This document shows positions 3,948 through 17,574 of a stretch of 64,000 nt of DNA, in pieces. Numbering within the stretch: the first letter of the stretch is position 1; each line of letters opens with the position of its first letter. A program made the translations under genes and the position numbers. Under the pieces are notes generated by a model. That model made no database searches. It saw nothing but the letters and a program-made list of their open reading frames with translations, and was not told the origin of the DNA. Source of the stretch: Rhodospirillales bacterium (GTDB lineage: Bacteria > Pseudomonadota > Alphaproteobacteria > Rhodospirillales > Magnetospirillaceae); contig JACMKT010000152.1 in NCBI GenBank assembly GCA_014380005.1, positions 62,001 to 126,000 of the forward strand. The letters run 5' to 3'.

Positions 3948-4565
3948 ATGCGCGTCGCTCTGACCATGCGTGTCACCCAAGCTTCGGGATATGTGGAGCC
4001 GCGCGATGCCATCAGCCATGACTGGATTGTCCGCTTGGCGGAGTGGCAGATGGTGCCGCTGCTGGTGCCCAACGCGTTGCCCGATCCCGCCGCCTATCTG
4101 GACGCGTTGGCGCCTGATCTGCTGGTGTTGACCGGCGGTGAAGACACCGGCGTGTCGCCCGAGCGCGACCGCACCGAAACCCTCCTGTTGGATGCCGCCA
4201 TCACGCGCGGGATTCCCGTGCTGGGGGTGTGCCGCGGCCTGCAATTGATCAACGCCTGCTTCGGCGGCCACTTGGTTGCGGTGACCGGCCACGTCGCCAC
4301 CGAGCATGCGCTTCAGGTGGCCGGCCCGTGGCAGCCCTTGATCGGCAGTGGGCCACGGGTAAATTCCTATCACAATTTTGCCATTCCCGCCGAAGGGTTG
4401 GGCGCCGGCCTCGAAGCGCTGGCGACCGACGAGTGCGGCAATGTGGAAGCCGTCCGCGCCCCCGGCCTTTCGCTGGCGGGGATCATGTGGCACCCTGAAC
4501 GCCACGCCGCCCGCTCCGAGGATCGGCTTTTCATGACCCGTCTGGCCGCCAAGGATCTCCCATGA
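3948..4565 (+). CDS. Class I glutamine-amidotransferase-like / peptidase C26 hydrolase (candidate gamma-glutamyl-CDP-amidate hydrolase type)
   Basis: LTGGEDTGVSPERDRTE, nucleophile motif LGVCRGLQLIN, VNSYHNFAI, MWHPER; ATG at 3948 after a GGAG. Confidence 0.82.
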   Translation: MRVALTMRVTQASGYVEPRDAISHDWIVRLAEWQMVPLLVPNALPDPAAYLDALAPDLLVLTGGEDTGVSPERDRTETLLLDAAITRGIPVLGVCRGLQLINACFGGHLVAVTGHVATEHALQVAGPWQPLIGSGPRVNSYHNFAIPAEGLGAGLEALATDECGNVEAVRAPGLSLAGIMWHPERHAARSEDRLFMTRLAAKDLP

Positions 4566-5353
4566 GCACCAACGCCATCATCCTCGCCGCCGGCAGCGGC
4601 AGCCGCCTGCGTCCCTATACGGACGACCGCCCCAAATCCATGGTGGAACTGGGCGGCATGACCCTGCTGGAGCGCCAATTGGCGACGCTGCGGGCCGCCG
4701 GAATCCAAGACGTGACCCTGGTGGTGGGTTACCGGGCCGAGGCCTTCGACCGCCTGGGTCTGGACACGGTGGTCAATCCGCTGTGGGAAACCACCAACAT
4801 GGTCGAAACCCTGTTCTGTGCCGAGGACCGTCTGCGCGAGGACACCGTGGTGGCCTATGCCGACATCGTCTACGAGCCCAGGGTGATCGGCGCTTTGCTT
4901 GCCAGCACCCATGATGCGTCGGTCATCGTGGACCGGGGCTGGCGTGCCTATTGGGAAATGCGTTCGCCCAACCCGCTGGACGATGCCGAAACCCTGCGCC
5001 TTGCCGCCGATGGCAGCATCCTCGAAATCGGCAACAAGCCCACCACCCTGGACGAGATCGAGGCCCAGTATATCGGCCTGATGCGGTTCCAGGGTAACGG
5101 CGTGGATACCCTCAAGCGCACCCGCGCCGAGCTGGGCAGCATCCGCCGCCCGTGGATGGACCGTCGTCCGCTGGAAAAGGCCTACATGACCGATCTGCTC
5201 ATGGAAATGGTGCTGCGCGGCCGGGCGCCCCATGCCGTTCCCATCGATAACGGTTGGCTTGAGATCGACACGGTTTCAGATTATGAAAAGGCCCTCGCGA
5301 TGCTGGCCGACAATCGCATCGCCACTTTTTACGAGCTGTTTCCTCCTCGATGA
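4562..5353 (+). CDS. Sugar/phospho-metabolite nucleotidyltransferase (phosphocholine/phosphoglutamine cytidylyltransferase-like)
   Basis: IILAAGSGSRLRPYTDDRPKSMVELGG, NPLWETTNMVETLFCA, WLEIDTVSDYEKA; 4-bp overlap with previous gene. Confidence 0.82.
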   Translation: MSTNAIILAAGSGSRLRPYTDDRPKSMVELGGMTLLERQLATLRAAGIQDVTLVVGYRAEAFDRLGLDTVVNPLWETTNMVETLFCAEDRLREDTVVAYADIVYEPRVIGALLASTHDASVIVDRGWRAYWEMRSPNPLDDAETLRLAADGSILEIGNKPTTLDEIEAQYIGLMRFQGNGVDTLKRTRAELGSIRRPWMDRRPLEKAYMTDLLMEMVLRGRAPHAVPIDNGWLEIDTVSDYEKALAMLADNRIATFYELFPPR

Positions 5354-7090: not shown

Positions 7091-7600
7091 ATGGTGATCT
7101 GGCTCATTGGTCTTTCGGGGGCCGGCAAGACGACTTTGGGTCGGGCGCTGTATGAACGGATGAAGCCCCAGCTTCCGAATCTTGTCCTCGTCGATGGAGA
7201 CGAGTTCCGCGAGGTGATGGGTAACGATATCGGCTTCACCTATGAGGACCGCCTCAAGAACGCCGAACGTTTCTCAAAATTCTGCCGGTTTTTGGACAAG
7301 CAGGGAATTCACCTAATCTGCTGTGTACTTTCAAATTTCCCCGATTGGCAGAAATGGAACCGGGAAAATTTGTCAGAGTATTATGAAATTTTTGTCGATA
7401 CCAATATTGATATTCTGGCTCAGCGCGATATTAAGAATATATACGCTAGGGCAAGGCGAGGTGAGGCGAAGAATGTCGTCGGCTATGATATTCCGTTCAT
7501 CAAGCCAAATGCCCATCTTGTCGTGAACAATGATGAAGTGCGCGTGGACGTTACTCCTTTGGTTGATAAAATTATAAACAATCTACCGAAACTTTCCTAA
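7091..7600 (+). CDS. Divergent adenylylsulfate-kinase-like kinase (candidate CDP-amidate kinase type)
   Basis: P-loop IGLSGAGKTTLGRALY, VDGDEFREVMG, RDIKNIYARARRGEAKNVVGYDIPF; lacks the I(S/A)PYRxxR motif, has LSNFPDWQKWNREN instead. Confidence 0.75.
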   Translation: MVIWLIGLSGAGKTTLGRALYERMKPQLPNLVLVDGDEFREVMGNDIGFTYEDRLKNAERFSKFCRFLDKQGIHLICCVLSNFPDWQKWNRENLSEYYEIFVDTNIDILAQRDIKNIYARARRGEAKNVVGYDIPFIKPNAHLVVNNDEVRVDVTPLVDKIINNLPKLS

Positions 7601-9215: not shown

Positions 9216-10805
9216 ATGACCGTTCTGCTGCACCGTTCCGACTGCCTGCCCACGGGCGTGTGGGATTGCTGGGCTGCCATCGGCGGTGGCAGGGCCACTC
9301 TTGACCCGGCGCGGGCGGTCGAGGGGTTGGCCGGTGGCTTGGAAGCCGCTTTCGACGCCATTGCCGATGAATGGCTGAGCTTGGCGCGCCGGTTGGGCGA
9401 AGCTGCTGATGCTCCGTTGTCCCACACCCCGTCGGCGGCACCCAATGCCTCGGATTTGGGTCTGATGATGGCGTGGACCAAGCTGGTGCAGCGTTGGGCG
9501 GAGGATCAGCGCATTGTGCTGGTGCTGTGCGACGACCCGTGGATGTTCCGCCATCTGGCAGACCTGCCCGGCGTGACCGCCGGTGCCGCTCCGGTTCTGT
9601 GGCCGGTCGCGTTGCGCCGGGTGTTGCGCGGCTATGCCGCCCGTGCCCGCACGGCAATACGGGCAGCCGGCGCCGCGTTGCGCATGCGGGGCCAGCATGT
9701 TGAGCCCGGCGGTCCCTGGCTGCTGGTCTACGGCCACCCCAAAAGCACCCGCGAGGGCGGCGACGCCTATTTCGCCGATTGTATGAAGGATCATCCCGGC
9801 TTGCGCCGTGCGCTGCATGTGGATGCGCCGCCCGACCGCGCTGCCACCCTGCTCAGTGGGCGCACCTGCTCGCTGCATGGCTGGGGCAATCCGCTGTTCG
9901 CCCTGTCTTTGGCATTCAAACGCTGGCGGCCCCAGGCCATTGGCCCGTGGCAGTGGCTGGTGCGCCGCGCCAGCGCCATGGAAGGTGGCCGTGGACAGGC
10001 GGCGGCGGTGGCGTGGCAGATGCACTGCCAGCGGCGTTGGCTGGCGGCGGTGCGTCCCCAGCTAGTGGCGTGGCCGTGGGAGAATCATGCGTGGGAGCGC
10101 GATCTCGTGCATGCCGCACGCGCATGCGGCACCAGGACCGTGGGCTATCAGCATTCGGTTATTGGCCGGCAGATGTTGAATTACGGGCCGGGCTCGTGTC
10201 CCGACGGCCAGGGCAGCCTGCCCGACGAGGTGGTGTGCAACGGCCAGACCACCCTGGACCAGCTGGTGGCTTGGGGGGTGACGCCGTCGCGCCTCACCAT
10301 CGGCGGTGCGCTGCGCTATGCCCAGCCGGGACAGGTCCGTTTTGACCCGAATGCGCCGGTATTCCTGGCGGTGCCGTTCGACCATCTTACCGCCCAGGAA
10401 ATGCTGGAGGCCGCCCGTGACGCCGCCCGCAGTCGTGGCTTGCGCTTCGTGCTGAAGGATCATCCGCTGTTCCCCTTCCCGTTCGAGGACGGCGGCGGGG
10501 TGACCCGTTCCACCACCCAACTTGAGGCCCAGGACGGCGTTTCGGCGGTGGTCTTCGCCGCCACCACGGTGGGGCTGGAGGCATTGCTCATGGGCATCCC
10601 CGCTTTGCGCTTCCGCCCCACGGGCCGGGTCGCCATCGACATTCTGCCCAGCGGCATCACCGCCCCGGTGACCAGCGCCGCCACTTTGGCCGACGATCTG
10701 ATGGATGCGCAGCCGCCGGTTCCGCCCGACCGCGCCTCGGTCTTCGCGCCAGTGGACGCGGCAACTTGGCGCCGGTTATTCTCGCCGCAAGGAGAATGCT
10801 CATGA
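9216..10805 (+). CDS. Surface carbohydrate biosynthesis protein / putative glycosyltransferase (TIGR04326-like)
   Basis: Domain pattern and context; PWLLVYGHPKSTREGGDAYFADC, VAWPWENHAWERDLVHAARACGTRTVGYQHSV, FVLKDHPLFPF. Confidence 0.55.
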   Translation: MTVLLHRSDCLPTGVWDCWAAIGGGRATLDPARAVEGLAGGLEAAFDAIADEWLSLARRLGEAADAPLSHTPSAAPNASDLGLMMAWTKLVQRWAEDQRIVLVLCDDPWMFRHLADLPGVTAGAAPVLWPVALRRVLRGYAARARTAIRAAGAALRMRGQHVEPGGPWLLVYGHPKSTREGGDAYFADCMKDHPGLRRALHVDAPPDRAATLLSGRTCSLHGWGNPLFALSLAFKRWRPQAIGPWQWLVRRASAMEGGRGQAAAVAWQMHCQRRWLAAVRPQLVAWPWENHAWERDLVHAARACGTRTVGYQHSVIGRQMLNYGPGSCPDGQGSLPDEVVCNGQTTLDQLVAWGVTPSRLTIGGALRYAQPGQVRFDPNAPVFLAVPFDHLTAQEMLEAARDAARSRGLRFVLKDHPLFPFPFEDGGGVTRSTTQLEAQDGVSAVVFAATTVGLEALLMGIPALRFRPTGRVAIDILPSGITAPVTSAATLADDLMDAQPPVPPDRASVFAPVDAATWRRLFSPQGECS

Positions 10806-11554
10806 ACGATCTCAAGCGACGTCTCGCGGCAGGCGAGGCCACCATCGGTGCGTGGCTGACCACCGCCTCGGATGAAGTGGCCGAAATCATGGCAACGCTG
10901 GGGTTCCATTGGCTGGCGGTGGATATGGAGCACGGCTCGGCAGGGGTGCGCGAAGCCCTGGCCGCCTTTCGTGCCGCCGAACGCCATGGGGTGGCGCCCA
11001 TGGTGCGGCTGCCCTCCGCCGATCCCTATCTGGCCCGCCGCCTGCTGGATGGCGGCGCCGCCGGTTTGATCGTGCCCGTGGTCGAGGACCCCGTCGCCTT
11101 TTCCGGCTTCATCCGCCACTGCCTGTATCCGTCCAATGGGCGCCGCGGCGTCGGGTTGTCGCGCTGCAACCAGTGGGGCGACCAGTTCAGCGAGTATCTG
11201 ACCGGCTTCTCGCCGGTCATTGTTCCGCAGATCGAGACCGTGGCCGGCGTCGCCGCCGCCGCTGCCATCGCCGCTTTGCCTGAAGTGGACGCGTTGTTCC
11301 TCGGCCCCTACGATCTGTCGGCCAGCCTGGGTTCCGCCGGTGATTTCACCACGCCGGCCTATGCCGCCGCCATCGCCGAGGTCAAGGCGGCGTGCACGGT
11401 GCATGGCAAGGCGCTGGGCATTCATCAGGTCCATCCCGATCCCCAAGAACTGGACGCCAGATTGGCCGAAGGCGCCCGCTTCATCGCCTATGGCACCGAC
11501 GCCATCGCCATCCGCCATGCGCTCAAGGCCGCCCGCCGTGAGGGAGTACAATGA
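10802..11554 (+). CDS. HpcH/HpaI-family class II pyruvate aldolase
   Basis: GAWLTTASDEVAEIMATLGFHWLAVDMEHG, VPQIETVAGV, LFLGPYDLSASLG. Confidence 0.88.
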   Translation: MNDLKRRLAAGEATIGAWLTTASDEVAEIMATLGFHWLAVDMEHGSAGVREALAAFRAAERHGVAPMVRLPSADPYLARRLLDGGAAGLIVPVVEDPVAFSGFIRHCLYPSNGRRGVGLSRCNQWGDQFSEYLTGFSPVIVPQIETVAGVAAAAAIAALPEVDALFLGPYDLSASLGSAGDFTTPAYAAAIAEVKAACTVHGKALGIHQVHPDPQELDARLAEGARFIAYGTDAIAIRHALKAARREGVQ

Positions 11555-12327
11555 AAACCGTCTGCATCATCCCCGCCCGCATGGCGTCGAGCCGTTTTCC
11601 CAATAAGCCGCTGGCGCCTATGCTGGGCATGGCGCTGGTGCTGCATGTGTGGCACCGCTGCCGCTTGGCGAGCGGTCTCGATCATGTGGTGGTCGCCACC
11701 TGTGATGAGGCGATCGCCGATGCGGTCCGTGCTCAAGGCGGCGAGGCGGTGATGACCGCCGACACCCATCCCGGTTGCGTGGACCGCACGGTGGAGGCGG
11801 TGACCAAACTTTACCCCGATTTGGCCGATGACGACCTTGTCCTCATGGTCCAGGGTGACGAAGTGATGGTCACTCCGCAGATGATCGAGAGCATGGTGGA
11901 GGTCTATTCCCGCACCAAGGCGCCGGTGGTCAATCTGGCCTCCGTCATCACATCCGCAGCCGATCAGGACGACCCCAATTGCGTGAAGGTCTGCGCCGCC
12001 CCCGATGGCCGCGCGCTGTTCTTCTCGCGCGCGCCCATTCCGTCGCGGTGGCGGGCGCAGGGCCCGGTGCCGGCCTATCAGCAGACCGGGGTGATCGGTT
12101 TTTCCCACGCCTTCCTGCAGACCTTCGGTACGCTGGAGCGCACGCCGCTGGAGATGATCGAACAGATCGACATGCTGCGCACACTGGAACATGGTTACCC
12201 CATCCAGATCGTCACCGTGGGTGTGGAAACCGTGGGCGTGGACACGCCGGCCGATCTGAAGCGCGGCGAGGATATGCTGCGCGCCGATCCGGTGACCCGG
12301 TTGTACATGGATTTGCAAGATGAGTGA
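11551..12327 (+). CDS. KdsB-like CMP-ulosonate cytidylyltransferase
   Basis: IIPARMASSRFPNKPLAPMLG, LMVQGDEVMV, FFSRAPIP, EQIDMLRTLEHGYPI, GVDTPADLKR. Confidence 0.82.
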   Translation: MKTVCIIPARMASSRFPNKPLAPMLGMALVLHVWHRCRLASGLDHVVVATCDEAIADAVRAQGGEAVMTADTHPGCVDRTVEAVTKLYPDLADDDLVLMVQGDEVMVTPQMIESMVEVYSRTKAPVVNLASVITSAADQDDPNCVKVCAAPDGRALFFSRAPIPSRWRAQGPVPAYQQTGVIGFSHAFLQTFGTLERTPLEMIEQIDMLRTLEHGYPIQIVTVGVETVGVDTPADLKRGEDMLRADPVTRLYMDLQDE

Positions 12328-13372
12328 GAAGTTGAGGGTCGGCATCGCCGGCTACGGCGTGGTGGGCAAGCTGCGCCGGCAAGTGGCGGACGAACATCCC
12401 CACATGCGCACCGTGGCTGTCTGCGACCGGCTTTTCGACAGCATGGGAACCTTGCCCGACGGTCTGCGCCACTATCCCTGCGCCGAGAGCCTGTTGGCCC
12501 ATGAAGAGCTGGACATCCTGTTCGTCTGCCTGACCAACGATGTTGCCGCCCAGGTGACCATCGCCGGGTTGGAAAAGGGCCTGCATGTCTTTTGCGAAAA
12601 GCCGCCGGGGCGGGATGTTTCCGACATCCGCCAAGTCATCGAGGCCGAGCGGCGTTATCCTCATCTCAAGCTCAAATACGGCTTCAACCATCGCTATCAC
12701 GATTCCGTGCGTGAGGCGTTGACGCTGGTGCGCTCGGGCGAATTCGGCCGTCTGATCAATCTGCGCGGCGTTTACGGCAAGTCCAAGATCATCGATTACC
12801 GCTCGCCCACCCATTGGCGGACCAAGCGGGCGGTGGCGGGCGGCGGTATCTTGCTGGATCAGGGCATTCACATGCTGGATCTCATGCGCTCCTTCGCCGG
12901 CGAATTCACCGAGATCCACAGCATCGTTTCCAACGATCATTGGCACCACGACGTTGAAGACAATGCTTATGCTCTGATGCGCACGGCGGATGGCATTGTT
13001 GCCATGCTGCACTCCACCGCTACCGAATGGCGTCATCGCTTTCGTCTGGAAATGTCGCTGGAAAAGGGCAGTATCGTGTTGGGCGGCATCCTTACCGGCT
13101 CAAAGAGCTACGGCGCCGAAACCATCACGGTGGCGTGGAAAACCGAGGATGACGCCGGCGATCCCATGGAACGTACCACGCGCTACAATTCCGATCCGTC
13201 CTGGCGTGACGAAATCTGGGATTTCATGGATGCGGTGATGAACGGCGCGTCCATCACCAACGGCTCTTCCGCCGATGCGCTTGCCACCATGGAACTGGTC
13301 TATCGCATCTACGGTGCCGATCCCAGCTGGGCGGCCAAGTGGGATTTGGCTCAGCCGGATATGGGCGCCTAA
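12320..13372 (+). CDS. Gfo/Idh/MocA family oxidoreductase
   Basis: N-terminal Rossmann GIAGYGVVGK, GLHVFCEKPPGRDV, GGGILLDQGIHMLDL. Confidence 0.88.
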   Translation: MSEKLRVGIAGYGVVGKLRRQVADEHPHMRTVAVCDRLFDSMGTLPDGLRHYPCAESLLAHEELDILFVCLTNDVAAQVTIAGLEKGLHVFCEKPPGRDVSDIRQVIEAERRYPHLKLKYGFNHRYHDSVREALTLVRSGEFGRLINLRGVYGKSKIIDYRSPTHWRTKRAVAGGGILLDQGIHMLDLMRSFAGEFTEIHSIVSNDHWHHDVEDNAYALMRTADGIVAMLHSTATEWRHRFRLEMSLEKGSIVLGGILTGSKSYGAETITVAWKTEDDAGDPMERTTRYNSDPSWRDEIWDFMDAVMNGASITNGSSADALATMELVYRIYGADPSWAAKWDLAQPDMGA

Positions 13373-14410
13373 GTGTCGGTTTCCCGCCGTCTCGCCCATC
13401 TCGATTGCTTGCGCGCCTTGGCCGCCTTGGCGGTAGCGGTCAATCATGTGTTCGGCGAAGTAGCCCATCTGGACCCTTCCCTGGGCTGGCTTGATCTGCC
13501 GGCCTATTTCGATTTTGGCCGGTACGGGGTGCTGCTGTTCTTCATCATCAGCGGCTATGTGATTCCGTTCAGCATCACCGGCCAGGGTCCGCGCGCCGTG
13601 GGCGTGTTCGCGGTGCACCGTCTGTTCCGCCTGTTTCCCGCCTATTGGGTGTCGCTGGGGGCGGCGTGGCTGGTCCTTGGCGGGTCGGCGGGGCTGTACG
13701 CCGTCAATGCCACCATGCTGCAGCGTTTTCTCGGCACCCCGGACGTGCTGGGGGTCTATTGGACGCTGGCGGTGGAACTGGTCTTCTATGGGCTGGTGGC
13801 CGGGTTGTTCCTAGTGGGATGGTTGCGGCGCGGCCCGCTGATCATGATCACGGCGGGGCTTGCCGTGGCGGTGGCGGGTGCCGGACTGATCCGTGCCTAT
13901 GGGGGCATTCCCATCCCCTTCGCTTGGCCGTCCTTCCTGTCGCTCATGCTGATGGGAAGCGTGATGCGCCGCATGGACGAGCGCGGGGTAACGCCCGGCT
14001 GGCGTGAGGCGTTGGGCCTTGGCCTGTTCGTGCTGGCTCAACTGACGGCTATTTTCGCCGTTTACGGCGATGCGGCCAACGGACGGTCCGCCTGGGGCGA
14101 GGCGGCGGCCTGGACCGGCGCCATCGCCACGTTCGCGCTGTTCCATTACGGCTGGCGCCTGACCGCCCCCGGCCTCGCCTATCTCGGCAAGATCAGCTAT
14201 TCGATCTATCTTTTCCATACATTGGCCAATCCGCTGATGCAGCGCATGCTGGCGGGCGAGAAGATTGGCGCCGTTCAGGCCATGGGCGTCGCAGCGCTGG
14301 AATTCGCCGCCAGTATCGCCGTTGCCGCCGCCGTCTATCATGTGGTGGAGGCGCCGGCCATTAAGTGGGGACGACGTCTGGGGACGCGCCTGTCCCAGTC
14401 AAGGGGTTAA
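13373..14410 (+). CDS. Acyltransferase family 3 membrane protein (GTG start)
   Basis: LDCLRALAALAVAVNHVFG, FGRYGVLLFFIISGYVIPFS, YLGKISYSIYLFH; multiple TM segments. Confidence 0.88.
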   Translation: MSVSRRLAHLDCLRALAALAVAVNHVFGEVAHLDPSLGWLDLPAYFDFGRYGVLLFFIISGYVIPFSITGQGPRAVGVFAVHRLFRLFPAYWVSLGAAWLVLGGSAGLYAVNATMLQRFLGTPDVLGVYWTLAVELVFYGLVAGLFLVGWLRRGPLIMITAGLAVAVAGAGLIRAYGGIPIPFAWPSFLSLMLMGSVMRRMDERGVTPGWREALGLGLFVLAQLTAIFAVYGDAANGRSAWGEAAAWTGAIATFALFHYGWRLTAPGLAYLGKISYSIYLFHTLANPLMQRMLAGEKIGAVQAMGVAALEFAASIAVAAAVYHVVEAPAIKWGRRLGTRLSQSRG

Positions 14411-14414
14411 TGAA

Positions 14415-15080
14415 ATGCGTGGTGTCGTGCTTGATCTGGACGGCACGCTGATCGACAGCGTGCCGGACGTGGCCCATGCCCTCAACTGCCTGCTGGCGGA
14501 AGAGGGGCGCCGTCTTCTGACCATGGACGAGGTCAAGGGTCTGGTGGGTGAAGGCGTCACCGTTCTGATGGAAGGCGCCTATGCCGCCACCGGCGCCACC
14601 GTCGCGGGTGCGGAATTGAGTGCGGCCATCGCGCGCTATCAGGATTTCTATGCCCGCGATCCGGCTACCCATACCATCGTGTTCCCCCAGGTGCGTGAAA
14701 CCTTGGAACGGCTGGCCGCCGAGGGCGTGGCGCTGGGCATCTGCACCAACAAGCCGTACCGCATCACCGGATTGGTGCTGGAGGCCCTGGGGCTGGCTCC
14801 GTTGTTCCGGGCCGTCACCGGCGGCGACAATCTGCCTTTCCGTAAGCCCGATGGCCGTCACATCCTGGCTACGGTGGAGATGATGGGATTGACGCCCGAT
14901 TCCGTGTTGTATGTGGGTGACAGCATTACCGACGTGCGTGCCGCCCGCGATGCTAAAATTCCCGTGGTGGCGGTGGCCTGGGGCTATGCTGACGAAGGCG
15001 GTGCGGAGGCCTTGGGTGCCGATGCCGTCATCGATGATTTTTCCGCCATCCCCGATCTGTTGCGCCGGTTGGTTCCATGA
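14415..15080 (+). CDS. HAD-family phosphatase (phosphoglycolate phosphatase-like)
   Basis: VLDLDGTLIDSVPDV, GICTNKPYR, KPDGRHIL, VLYVGDSITDVRAARDA. Confidence 0.87.
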   Translation: MRGVVLDLDGTLIDSVPDVAHALNCLLAEEGRRLLTMDEVKGLVGEGVTVLMEGAYAATGATVAGAELSAAIARYQDFYARDPATHTIVFPQVRETLERLAAEGVALGICTNKPYRITGLVLEALGLAPLFRAVTGGDNLPFRKPDGRHILATVEMMGLTPDSVLYVGDSITDVRAARDAKIPVVAVAWGYADEGGAEALGADAVIDDFSAIPDLLRRLVP

Positions 15081-16006
15081 CCCGTATCGCCGTCTGCTCG
15101 CGTTCGTTCTCACGCCACCCCATCTTGCGCGGCGAGCTGATCGCCCGTTTTCCCCATGCCGAGATCACGTTCAACGACGCCGGCCTCAGCCTGTCGGGGG
15201 CTGGGCTGATCGATTTCGTGCGTGGGCATGACCGCGCGGTCACCGCGCTTGAGTGTTTGGATGAAGCCTTCTTCGCCGCCCTGCCGGAACTCAAGACGGT
15301 GGGTAAATACGGCGTCGGCCTGGACATGATCGATATGGCGGCCATGCGGCGTCACGGCGTGCGCCTGGGCTGGACCGGCGGCGTCAACCGGCGGTCGGTG
15401 ACCGAGCTGGTGGTGTCCTGCGCCATCGCCTTGCTGCGCCACGTGCCCGAGGGCAATCAGTTGGTGCGTGACGGCGGCTGGCGTCAGTTCATGGGGCGGC
15501 AATTGACCGGCAAGACGGTGGGTATCGTCGGCTGCGGCCATATCGGCAAGGACCTCATCCAGGTGCTGAAGGCCTTCGACTGCACCATGCTGGCCCACGA
15601 CATCCGCGATTTCCCCGATTTTTATGCCGCCCACACTGTGCGCCCCATGGGGCTTGAGGAACTGCTGGCCGCGTCCGACGTGGTGACGCTTCATCTGCCC
15701 CATGACGACAGCACTGCGGGCATCCTGTCGGCACGGCGCCTGGCTCTGATGAAGCCGTCCGCCATCCTCATCAACGCCGCGCGCGGCGGATTGGTGGACG
15801 AGGTGGCCATGAAGGCCATGCTCATGGATGGCCGGTTGGCCGGTGCCGCGTTCGATGTTTTCAACGGCGAGCCGCCCACCGACATGGAATTGCTGCGCCT
15901 GCCCAATTTCCTCGCCACTCCCCATGTGGGTGGCAGCGCCGAAGAAGCGGTCTTGGCCATGGGCCGGGCCGCCATGGACGGCCTTGAGCGGGCGGAGGTT
16001 CCATGA
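15077..16006 (+). CDS. D-isomer-specific 2-hydroxyacid dehydrogenase (phosphoglycerate dehydrogenase-like)
   Basis: GVGLDMIDMAAMRRHGV, VGIVGCGHIGKDL, LINAARGGLVDE, ATPHVGGSAEEA. Confidence 0.87.
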   Translation: MTRIAVCSRSFSRHPILRGELIARFPHAEITFNDAGLSLSGAGLIDFVRGHDRAVTALECLDEAFFAALPELKTVGKYGVGLDMIDMAAMRRHGVRLGWTGGVNRRSVTELVVSCAIALLRHVPEGNQLVRDGGWRQFMGRQLTGKTVGIVGCGHIGKDLIQVLKAFDCTMLAHDIRDFPDFYAAHTVRPMGLEELLAASDVVTLHLPHDDSTAGILSARRLALMKPSAILINAARGGLVDEVAMKAMLMDGRLAGAAFDVFNGEPPTDMELLRLPNFLATPHVGGSAEEAVLAMGRAAMDGLERAEVP

Positions 16007-17574
16007 GCCGCCAGGCGGATGGGCGTTCGACGGTCTGGCCCGCTTGGGTAATCCCAGGGGGGCTGGCCGTGCTCTTCACCGTGCTGGTCCTTTTCCGGCC
16101 GGAACGGCTGCAGCTTGCGGGTGCCGCTTTCGCGGCGGCGATCGTCGTGCTGGGACTGTATCCGGTGCTGCGCTTCCTGCGTGCGTCAGAGCCGGAGCCC
16201 CTGCCGTTCTTCGCGGCATTGGGTGTTTTTTATGCGGTGTTTTTTGGTTTTTCGGCGTTCCTGGTGGACATCATCTGGCCGAACGGCGAACCGATCTTTG
16301 TTTATCTGATGGCGCCGGGCCTGCAACGTTTGTCCGACGAAGCCATGGCGGCCATGTTTCTTGGGGCGTCATCGTTATTGGTGGTCGGACTGGTTGCCAA
16401 TAAGGCATTCCGTCGGATATTGCCGCCGCTTCCCATCTCACCCGCCCGCAGCGAAGGGGTTGCGTTAGGCGTGGCGTGGGTTGCCCTGGGGATCCATTTC
16501 ACCGGTTTGCTGATCCCGGCTTTGCGCAGTTTGCCGTCCGTCGGGCAATTGATCATTCCCCTGGGCAATCTTGGCTTCGGCATTTTGCTGCTGTTGGCCC
16601 TTAACGGCCAAATGCGGCGCTCCATGGCCATCATGGTTTTCGGTGTCCTGCTTGCCGTGCGGGTGGTGATCGGCGGACAGACGGGCTCCATGGCAAGCAT
16701 TCTGCTGCTGCCGGCATTTCTCGGTTTTCTTGCCCTTGTTCGCAACCGGCGCATGGGCATCATCATCGTCTTGGTGATTTGTGCCGTGGTCAGCTTTGGT
16801 TACGCCCCCTTAAATCAGGTGCGGGCGGTGGCAGCGGCGGAAAGTCCCATGCCGCTTGCGCGCTTTGCGGAAGTGTTTCGGGAACTTCCCGAGCGGCTGA
16901 GCCGGCTGGATAATTTCTCCGGTAAAGTGGCTGAGCGTTGTAACAAGCCATTGCCGTTCAGGGCGCACACACCCGCGACGCCCGCCGAATATCAGGCCTG
17001 TCTTGAGGTGGAAACCGGCCCCAGCTATGTCCCGCCGACCGATCAGGGCGGATGGGCCCTGGTGGCGACGGTTCTGCGGCAAGCCGTCAAGCGGGTGAAT
17101 CAAACGGCCATGTTCGCCTTGGTGTACGAACAGACGCCGTCGCGGGTGCCCTATTGGGGTGGGGACACGCTGCGGCCGCTGCTTACCAGCATGGTTCCAC
17201 GGGCGGTATGGCCGGGAAAGCCCGAGGAACGTGCCGGTCAGGCGTTCGGGTGGCGCTATGGACTGATTACGGACAGGGACGGTGACATGTCGGTCAACCT
17301 GTCCTGGCTGGTGGAGGCCTTCGCGAATTTCGGCTGGCTTGGTCTGGTGGTGGTGATGGGCTTGGCGGGTTTGGTTCTGGCCTTGCTGGACGCGGTGTTG
17401 AACCGGCGAGGCATGGGCAGTCTTCAGCTTGCCGTCGGGGCGACCGTGCTGTTCCCGCTGGTCAACCAGGAATCCAATCTCAGTCTGACATTTGGCGCCA
17501 CCGTGCCGCTGCTGCTTGCATTGGCGTTTCTGGTGCGGTTCGTCACCTGGGCGGGGCAACGCATGGCGCGCTGA
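16003..17574 (+). CDS. Polytopic membrane protein, Wzy-like polysaccharide polymerase
   Basis: About 12 hydrophobic segments, large periplasmic loop, YWGGDTLRPLLTSMVPRAVWPGKPE, LVNQESNLSLTFG; cluster context. Confidence 0.65.
   Translation: MSRQADGRSTVWPAWVIPGGLAVLFTVLVLFRPERLQLAGAAFAAAIVVLGLYPVLRFLRASEPEPLPFFAALGVFYAVFFGFSAFLVDIIWPNGEPIFVYLMAPGLQRLSDEAMAAMFLGASSLLVVGLVANKAFRRILPPLPISPARSEGVALGVAWVALGIHFTGLLIPALRSLPSVGQLIIPLGNLGFGILLLLALNGQMRRSMAIMVFGVLLAVRVVIGGQTGSMASILLLPAFLGFLALVRNRRMGIIIVLVICAVVSFGYAPLNQVRAVAAAESPMPLARFAEVFRELPERLSRLDNFSGKVAERCNKPLPFRAHTPATPAEYQACLEVETGPSYVPPTDQGGWALVATVLRQAVKRVNQTAMFALVYEQTPSRVPYWGGDTLRPLLTSMVPRAVWPGKPEERAGQAFGWRYGLITDRDGDMSVNLSWLVEAFANFGWLGLVVVMGLAGLVLALLDAVLNRRGMGSLQLAVGATVLFPLVNQESNLSLTFGATVPLLLALAFLVRFVTWAGQRMAR

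Follow-up and report, generated by a model that had tools for sequence, protein, structure and literature searches.

An HpcH-family aldolase paired with a KdsB-like cytidylyltransferase in a Rhodospirillales bacterium: a proposed aldolase route to a CMP-activated ulosonic acid other than Kdo

Introduction

To our knowledge, the ulosonic acids that are activated with cytidine monophosphate (CMP), namely 3-deoxy-D-manno-octulosonic acid (Kdo), sialic, pseudaminic and legionaminic acid, are made by synthases dependent on phosphoenolpyruvate (PEP). In the Kdo pathway (KdsD-KdsA-KdsC-KdsB) a 2-keto acid is formed, dephosphorylated and then activated by an enzyme of the KdsB family; the pathways of the nonulosonic acids (NeuB and NeuA, PseI and PseF, LegI and LegF) likewise end in a CMP-activated 2-keto acid that goes into surface glycans. 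Aldolases of the HpcH/HpaI family usually act in catabolism, and the aldolase used in one-pot CMP-sialic acid synthesis is a Schiff-base enzyme of the NanA type. Here we describe an operon in a 64,000 nucleotide stretch of a Rhodospirillales genome (GCA_014380005.1, contig JACMKT010000152.1, positions 62,001 to 126,000; hereafter the window), in which an HpcH/HpaI-family aldolase is encoded next to a KdsB-like cytidylyltransferase (CT). We propose, with a probability of about 0.6, that the operon encodes the synthesis and use of a CMP-activated 2-ulosonic acid distinct from Kdo, by a PEP-independent aldolase route, for a surface glycan.

Compared with the Kdo pathway, the operon has the HpcH aldolase in the place of KdsA, a Gfo or short-chain dehydrogenase/reductase (SDR) enzyme and a D-2-hydroxyacid dehydrogenase (D2HDH) are added, and four KdsB residues (H181, Y185, E210, Q211) are changed. 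Unlike the nonulosonic acid pathways it contains an aldolase and no NeuB-type synthase, and some related loci share the NeuA-type CT with them. The arrangement resembles the one-pot laboratory system in which an aldolase feeds CMP-sialic acid synthetase (PMC7729866), but here the pairing occurs in nature, with an aldolase of the metal-dependent HpcH family. With the catabolic aldolases HpaI, GarL and YfaU the module enzyme shares the Pfam family and the catalytic residues; unlike them, it falls into a distinct clade with characteristic residues and is encoded in polysaccharide loci. A Sphingobium HpcH aldolase was found in a catabolic locus. No description of the aldolase-CT pairing was found in the open-access literature searched; most subscription journals lie beyond it, and an earlier description is possible. 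The initial annotation had pointed to a broadly similar gene set in Leptospira surface loci; the passages located in PMC4758666 do not contain the pairing. Klebsiella K38, which contains a pentulosonic acid, was considered as a characterised precedent and set aside, there being no gene-level information on it in PMC4616057.

Results

The aldolase and the cytidylyltransferase form a conserved pair

The aldolase gene (10802-11554, + strand; PF03328, 107 bits against a cut-off of 25) overlaps the CT gene (11551-12327, + strand; PF02348, 130 bits). When GTDB contigs were scanned with the KdsB-like protein as the sole query, eight loci were returned. In the five closest, found in Rhodospirillaceae UBA6219, a Stygiobacter-binned contig, Magnetospirillum aberrantis, Kiloniella laminariae and a Cloacimonadota metagenome-assembled genome (MAG), the aldolase gene immediately precedes the KdsB-like gene, and a D2HDH gene lies downstream. 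Gfo/Idh and GT-B-fold protein genes are each present in four of the five, and the filler genes vary (GDSL-type protein and HAD; SDR and a 3-dehydroquinate-synthase-like protein; SIS-domain protein and inositol monophosphatase; SDR). On an Acuticoccus plasmid, genes for an aldolase, a NeuA-type CT, D2HDH, HAD and SDR follow in series.

Linkage was tested separately with a profile made from seven module aldolases, which was run against 385 alphaproteobacterial genomes. The profile scored at least 268 bits in five genomes (the source genome, G148, G372, G091 and G040), and the next score was 220. A CT was present in the locus of all five top-scoring aldolases (in G040 about 4 kb away) versus none of the next 25 loci, whose flanks were inspected for approximately 1.5 kb per side, so that a more distant CT would escape. 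With the source genome excluded the split is 4/4 versus 0/25; random labelling would give it with a probability of about 4e-5.

A phylum-wide search revealed nine further aldolases scoring above 240 bits, six of them (G530, G398, G470, G491, G497, G441) in loci with a KdsB-like CT and mostly with D2HDH. The CT-linked loci then total 17 (five from the 385-genome search, L010-L014, L028 and the six of the phylum-wide search), mostly proteobacterial and Cloacimonadota, and unrelated bacteria share the pairing. D2HDH is encoded in 14 of them, and two of the three lacking it are bounded by contig ends. There is usually one sugar oxidoreductase per locus (Gfo/Idh in 8/17, extended SDR in seven), and a phosphatase of the HAD or inositol-monophosphatase type occurs in 9/17. 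In several loci a SIS-domain sugar-phosphate isomerase is encoded as well, along with a phosphatase, a parallel to KdsD and KdsC. What stays constant in this one conserved polysaccharide-linked module is the pair of aldolase and CT, and their pairing is not due to chance. The initial annotation had called for comparative genomics of aldolase-KdsB-like pairs; the 17 loci and the 5/5 versus 0/25 split are its outcome.

Some features of individual loci were recorded in passing. Several proteins of the Stygiobacter contig (L011) are 74-81% identical to alphaproteobacterial ones, and the contig is therefore probably misbinned. In G398 a second KdsB-family gene (L126:9095-9910) lies less than 2 kb from the module aldolase. 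In two loci the Gfo/SDR genes are separated from D2HDH by a 3-dehydroquinate-synthase-like gene (L011:10506-11585, L012:12225-13331), the substrate of which could be a heptulosonate-like sugar. Genes resembling 6-phosphogluconolactonase lie beside the module at L013:6405-7079, L105:5706-6425, L106:11832-12461, L127:10707-11420 and L131:5687-6484, the last in a locus with no CT. Exonuclease-like genes (RNase_T or, below cut-off, Rv2179c-like) adjoin it at L106:9523-10188 and L028:12800-13447.

The catalytic residues are intact and the cytidylyltransferase diverges from Kdo enzymes

The aldolase is a member of the HpcH/HpaI class II pyruvate aldolases: in addition to the PF03328 match, alignment revealed that all seven catalytic and metal-binding residues are kept (E43, H44, R69, D83, Q143, E145 and D171, equivalent to E49, H50, R75, D89, Q151, E153 and D179 of GarL). 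It does not belong to the HpaI, GarL or YfaU equivalogs, scoring 149, 135-138 and 108 bits, respectively, against cut-offs of 369 to 441. The CT-linked aldolases form one clade (11 rows, support 97/95), separate from the other 27, GarL and HpaI among them. The clade is marked by F129, Y170 and an inserted H208, present in 18/18. Hydroxyketoacid aldolases of the HpcH family are among the solved relatives.

The CT CYTIDYLYLTRANSFERASE belongs to the KdsB/CTP_transf_3 family. It matches PF02348 and passes the KdsB subfamily cut-offs (PRK13368, 258.5 bits over 255; TIGR00466, 161.5 over 155.2). It keeps the loop for cytidine triphosphate (CTP) and the Mg ligands, given for the window protein as R10, R15, K19, D103 and D231; with roles assigned as in PMC3149649, the CTP and Mg residues retained are R10, R15, K19, D100 and D235. 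Four residues conserved in all 30 members of a canonical KdsB set are changed relative to Escherichia coli KdsB: H181 to Q178, Y185 to I182, E210 to D207 and Q211 to M208. The changes lie within the C-terminal domain that binds the sugar, or beside it (roles of the domains as in PMC3149649). Among the aldolase-linked CTs, two partners of HMGL-type aldolases included, H181 is replaced by Gln in 8/9 and Q211 by Met, Tyr or Ile in 9/9. These enzymes split from canonical KdsB with support of 99/98, in a tree with several long branches and a bootstrap that had not settled. Because residues invariant in canonical KdsB (H181, Q211) are changed, Kdo is probably not the substrate.

Either partner can be replaced

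In L028, G148, G372 and G091 a NeuA-type CT takes the place of the KdsB-like enzyme. Conversely, in G053 an HMGL-like aldolase gene (PF00682) is followed by genes for a KdsB-like CT, a HAD protein and a TIGR04326 protein scoring above cut-off; a Leisingera plasmid has an HMGL-like aldolase, KdsB and HAD in series, and in G297 an HMGL-like aldolase adjoins KdsB. L029 and L040, the two HMGL-type loci inspected in most detail, had no D2HDH match. No HpcH or HMGL aldolase was found adjacent to the plasmid-borne kdsB of E. coli/Klebsiella, Bacteroides, Parabacteroides, Fusobacterium, Marivivens or Streptomyces. KdsB-family enzymes occur with aldolases of two classes, and HpcH aldolases with CTs of two subfamilies; both partners are replaceable, which fits a role of the aldolase as supplier of the CT substrate.

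Other synthases and cytidylyltransferases of the source genome

The operon itself showed neither a KdsA nor a NeuB gene. The genome has one KdsA, at C220 beside pyrG, and two NeuB-type genes (C218:11935 and C218:36612), both outside the window. A canonical KdsB is encoded at C236, and there are two further strong CTs, one at C218 within a NeuB/NeuC-type cluster and the other at C241 within a pse-like one. Judged by number and neighbourhood, KdsA and the two NeuB-type synthases can be served by these three other CTs. No aromatic-catabolism gene was found beside the aldolase. The initial annotation had suggested that a pyruvate aldolase makes a 2-keto-3-deoxy acid that is then CMP-activated. Its two stated risks, a PEP-dependent synthase feeding the CT and an aldolase confined to aromatic catabolism, were not borne out by the operon or its surroundings. 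The occurrence of aldolase and CT in one conserved module upheld the core of the suggestion; pyruvate as the donor, a 3-deoxy product and direct action of the CT on it are hypothetical.

Partner genes of the operon

The genes between 9216 and 17574 overlap or abut, all on the + strand (contig C218 of the 4.24 Mb draft genome). The CT gene is followed by genes for a Gfo/Idh/MocA sugar oxidoreductase (12320-13372; PF01408 and PF22725 above cut-off), an acyltransferase-3 membrane protein with a GTG start, a local decoration gene (13373-14410; PF01757, 95 bits), a HAD phosphatase resembling phosphoglycolate phosphatase (14415-15080; TIGR01449, 196.5 bits over a cut-off of 180; PF13419), D2HDH (15077-16006; PF02826, 185 bits) and a candidate Wzy-like polymerase (16003-17574). 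The six genes at 10802-16006 stand in the order first described, followed by the Wzy-like gene. As a unit, the described set held in its aldolase/CT core; the acyltransferase and Wzy genes are local additions, and the gene upstream of the aldolase belongs to the conserved unit. No homologue of the acyltransferase was matched in loci L010-L017. The Wzy-like protein had no Pfam match, and its sole family signal was a weak one, below cut-off, to an XrtY (exosortase)-associated Wzy-like family (36.7 bits); homologues approximately 36% identical occupy the same position in L010 and L011.

The unit begins one gene earlier than first described: the stop of a TIGR04326-like gene (9216-10805, + strand) overlaps the aldolase start. 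Its product, a surface-carbohydrate protein with a predicted GT-B fold, is a candidate for transferring the CMP-activated sugar. By score (54.8 bits against a cut-off of 250) it is no member of TIGR04326, a family named after Leptospira LIC13510, but a distant relative. Homologues are encoded upstream of the aldolase in L010-L013; the gene beside KdsB-like and HAD in G053 is the above-cutoff family member. A single-sequence AlphaFold model had a predicted local distance difference test (pLDDT) value of 39, and an alignment of seven sequences was used instead, giving a predicted TM-score (pTM) of 0.72. The best Foldseek matches of this model were GT-B-fold proteins, mainly UDP-GlcNAc 2-epimerases. 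H416-P417 is invariant in the seven sequences.

In D2HDH, R236, E265, H283 and E59 are invariant in 15 module members. The enzyme is nearest to phosphoglycerate dehydrogenases and hydroxypyruvate reductases, and might itself be a genuine phosphoglycerate dehydrogenase.

Discussion

In the proposed pathway the HpcH-family aldolase would condense an aldose or aldehyde-acid with a 2-oxo acid, pyruvate being the likeliest, and release the 2-keto acid in free form with no need for PEP. Where the acceptor is phosphorylated, the HAD phosphatase would strip the phosphate, and the Gfo/Idh dehydrogenase and D2HDH may tailor acceptor, donor or product. The KdsB-like enzyme would then link the 2-ulosonic acid with CMP; its transfer would fall to the GT-B protein encoded just upstream of the aldolase, and polymerisation of the repeat unit to the Wzy-like protein. 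Donor, acceptor, product, order of the steps and role of the transferase are deduced from the predicted functions of the genes. The activated sugar acid is probably neither Kdo nor sialic acid.

Several observations weigh against this pathway. The near-universal D2HDH (14/17 loci), together with the 6-phosphogluconolactonase-like gene of some loci, is not explained by pyruvate and a simple aldehyde, and hints at chemistry beyond them. In the phylum-wide search, the aldolases of G431 and G538 (242-245 bits) had no CT nearby and an unrelated context, and the G515 locus has D2HDH, SDR, HAD and lactonase genes with no CT within 9 kb. The assignment of the GT-B protein is a generic match at the level of the fold, which does not indicate the donor. 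Because the companion genes vary, the products probably differ among loci. Finally, the proposal is drawn from sequence: the genes present, their recurrence together, the retained catalytic residues and the distance of the CT from Kdo enzymes.

The constancy of D2HDH, the chief point for which the aldolase route does not account, makes two alternatives serious. By the first, which we regard as unlikely, the Gfo or SDR enzyme and a lactonase make an aldonate, D2HDH oxidises its C2, the resulting 2-keto acid is joined to CMP, and the aldolase acts at an earlier stage, building or shortening the carbon chain. The D2HDH family includes 2-ketoaldonate reductases, and the frequency of D2HDH, the usual single sugar oxidoreductase per locus and the lactonase-like genes of L013, L105, L106, L127 and the CT-less L131 agree with such an oxidation; the constant pair is, however, aldolase and CT, unrelated aldolases substitute beside KdsB, and the HMGL-type loci L029 and L040 do without a D2HDH match. 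D2HDH might instead supply hydroxypyruvate as the donor, from D-glycerate or, with the phosphatase, from 3-phosphoglycerate, to give a non-deoxy ulosonic acid for CMP activation. To this we assign a still somewhat smaller likelihood: the nearest relatives of D2HDH, the hydroxyketoacid aldolases among the solved HpcH relatives and the phosphatase that often accompanies D2HDH speak for it, but the invariant E59 is a difference in the D2HDH pocket, some loci have no phosphatase, and there is no direct sign of donor choice.

It seems improbable that the KdsB-like protein is this glycan's own CMP-Kdo synthetase, comparable to KpsU in capsule synthesis, with the housekeeping KdsA supplying it and the aldolase acting in another step. 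Its PRK13368 and TIGR00466 scores and the presence of KdsA in the genome would agree with it; yet KpsU, which falls within the canonical set, keeps the H181 and Q211 that the module enzymes lack, the module CTs form a separate clade with a conserved aldolase linkage, and another, canonical KdsB exists at C236. The usual catabolic role of HpcH/HpaI aldolases and the CT-free contexts of G431 and G538 might suggest a catabolic aldolase merely situated in a polysaccharide locus; this is contradicted by the co-occurrence in 17 loci, the supported clade and the 5/5 versus 0/25 split, and we give it very little credence.

We return to the aldolase route as the preferred reading and propose the module, from its genes, as a putative new form of CMP-ulosonate biosynthesis. 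Whether it represents a widespread third route besides KdsA and NeuB, in which unrelated HpcH- and HMGL-type aldolases feed KdsB- and NeuA-type synthetases to give undescribed products that are neither Kdo nor sialic acids, we consider evenly balanced. If true, the aldolase route would account for ulosonic acids in the glycans of organisms with no matching synthase, would suggest that bacterial surface glycans contain sugar acids not yet known, and would offer an enzymatic module for making CMP-ulosonates from 2-oxo acids and aldehydes. It also turns vague annotations ('kdsB', 'garL-like') into a testable pathway.

Other genes in and near the window

Downstream of the operon, genes for a CDP-glucose-derived sugar and further glycosyltransferases were read from the sequences, and by these predicted functions the content is that of a typical surface-polysaccharide locus. 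A possible phosphoramidate cassette, similar to that for the O-methyl phosphoramidate (MeOPN) of Campylobacter, comprises three window genes (3948-4565, 4562-5353 and 7091-7600) for a glutamine amidotransferase resembling gamma-glutamyl-CDP-amidate hydrolase (best match NF045546, below cut-off), a nucleotidyltransferase and an APS-kinase-like protein, and, approximately 5 kb upstream of the window on C218, a PRK05849 protein (L136:8971-11325; PPDK_N/PEP-utiliser) resembling glutamine kinase. An open reading frame at 25-1647 of the window fuses a pyruvate-kinase barrel fragment to ATP-sulfurylase.

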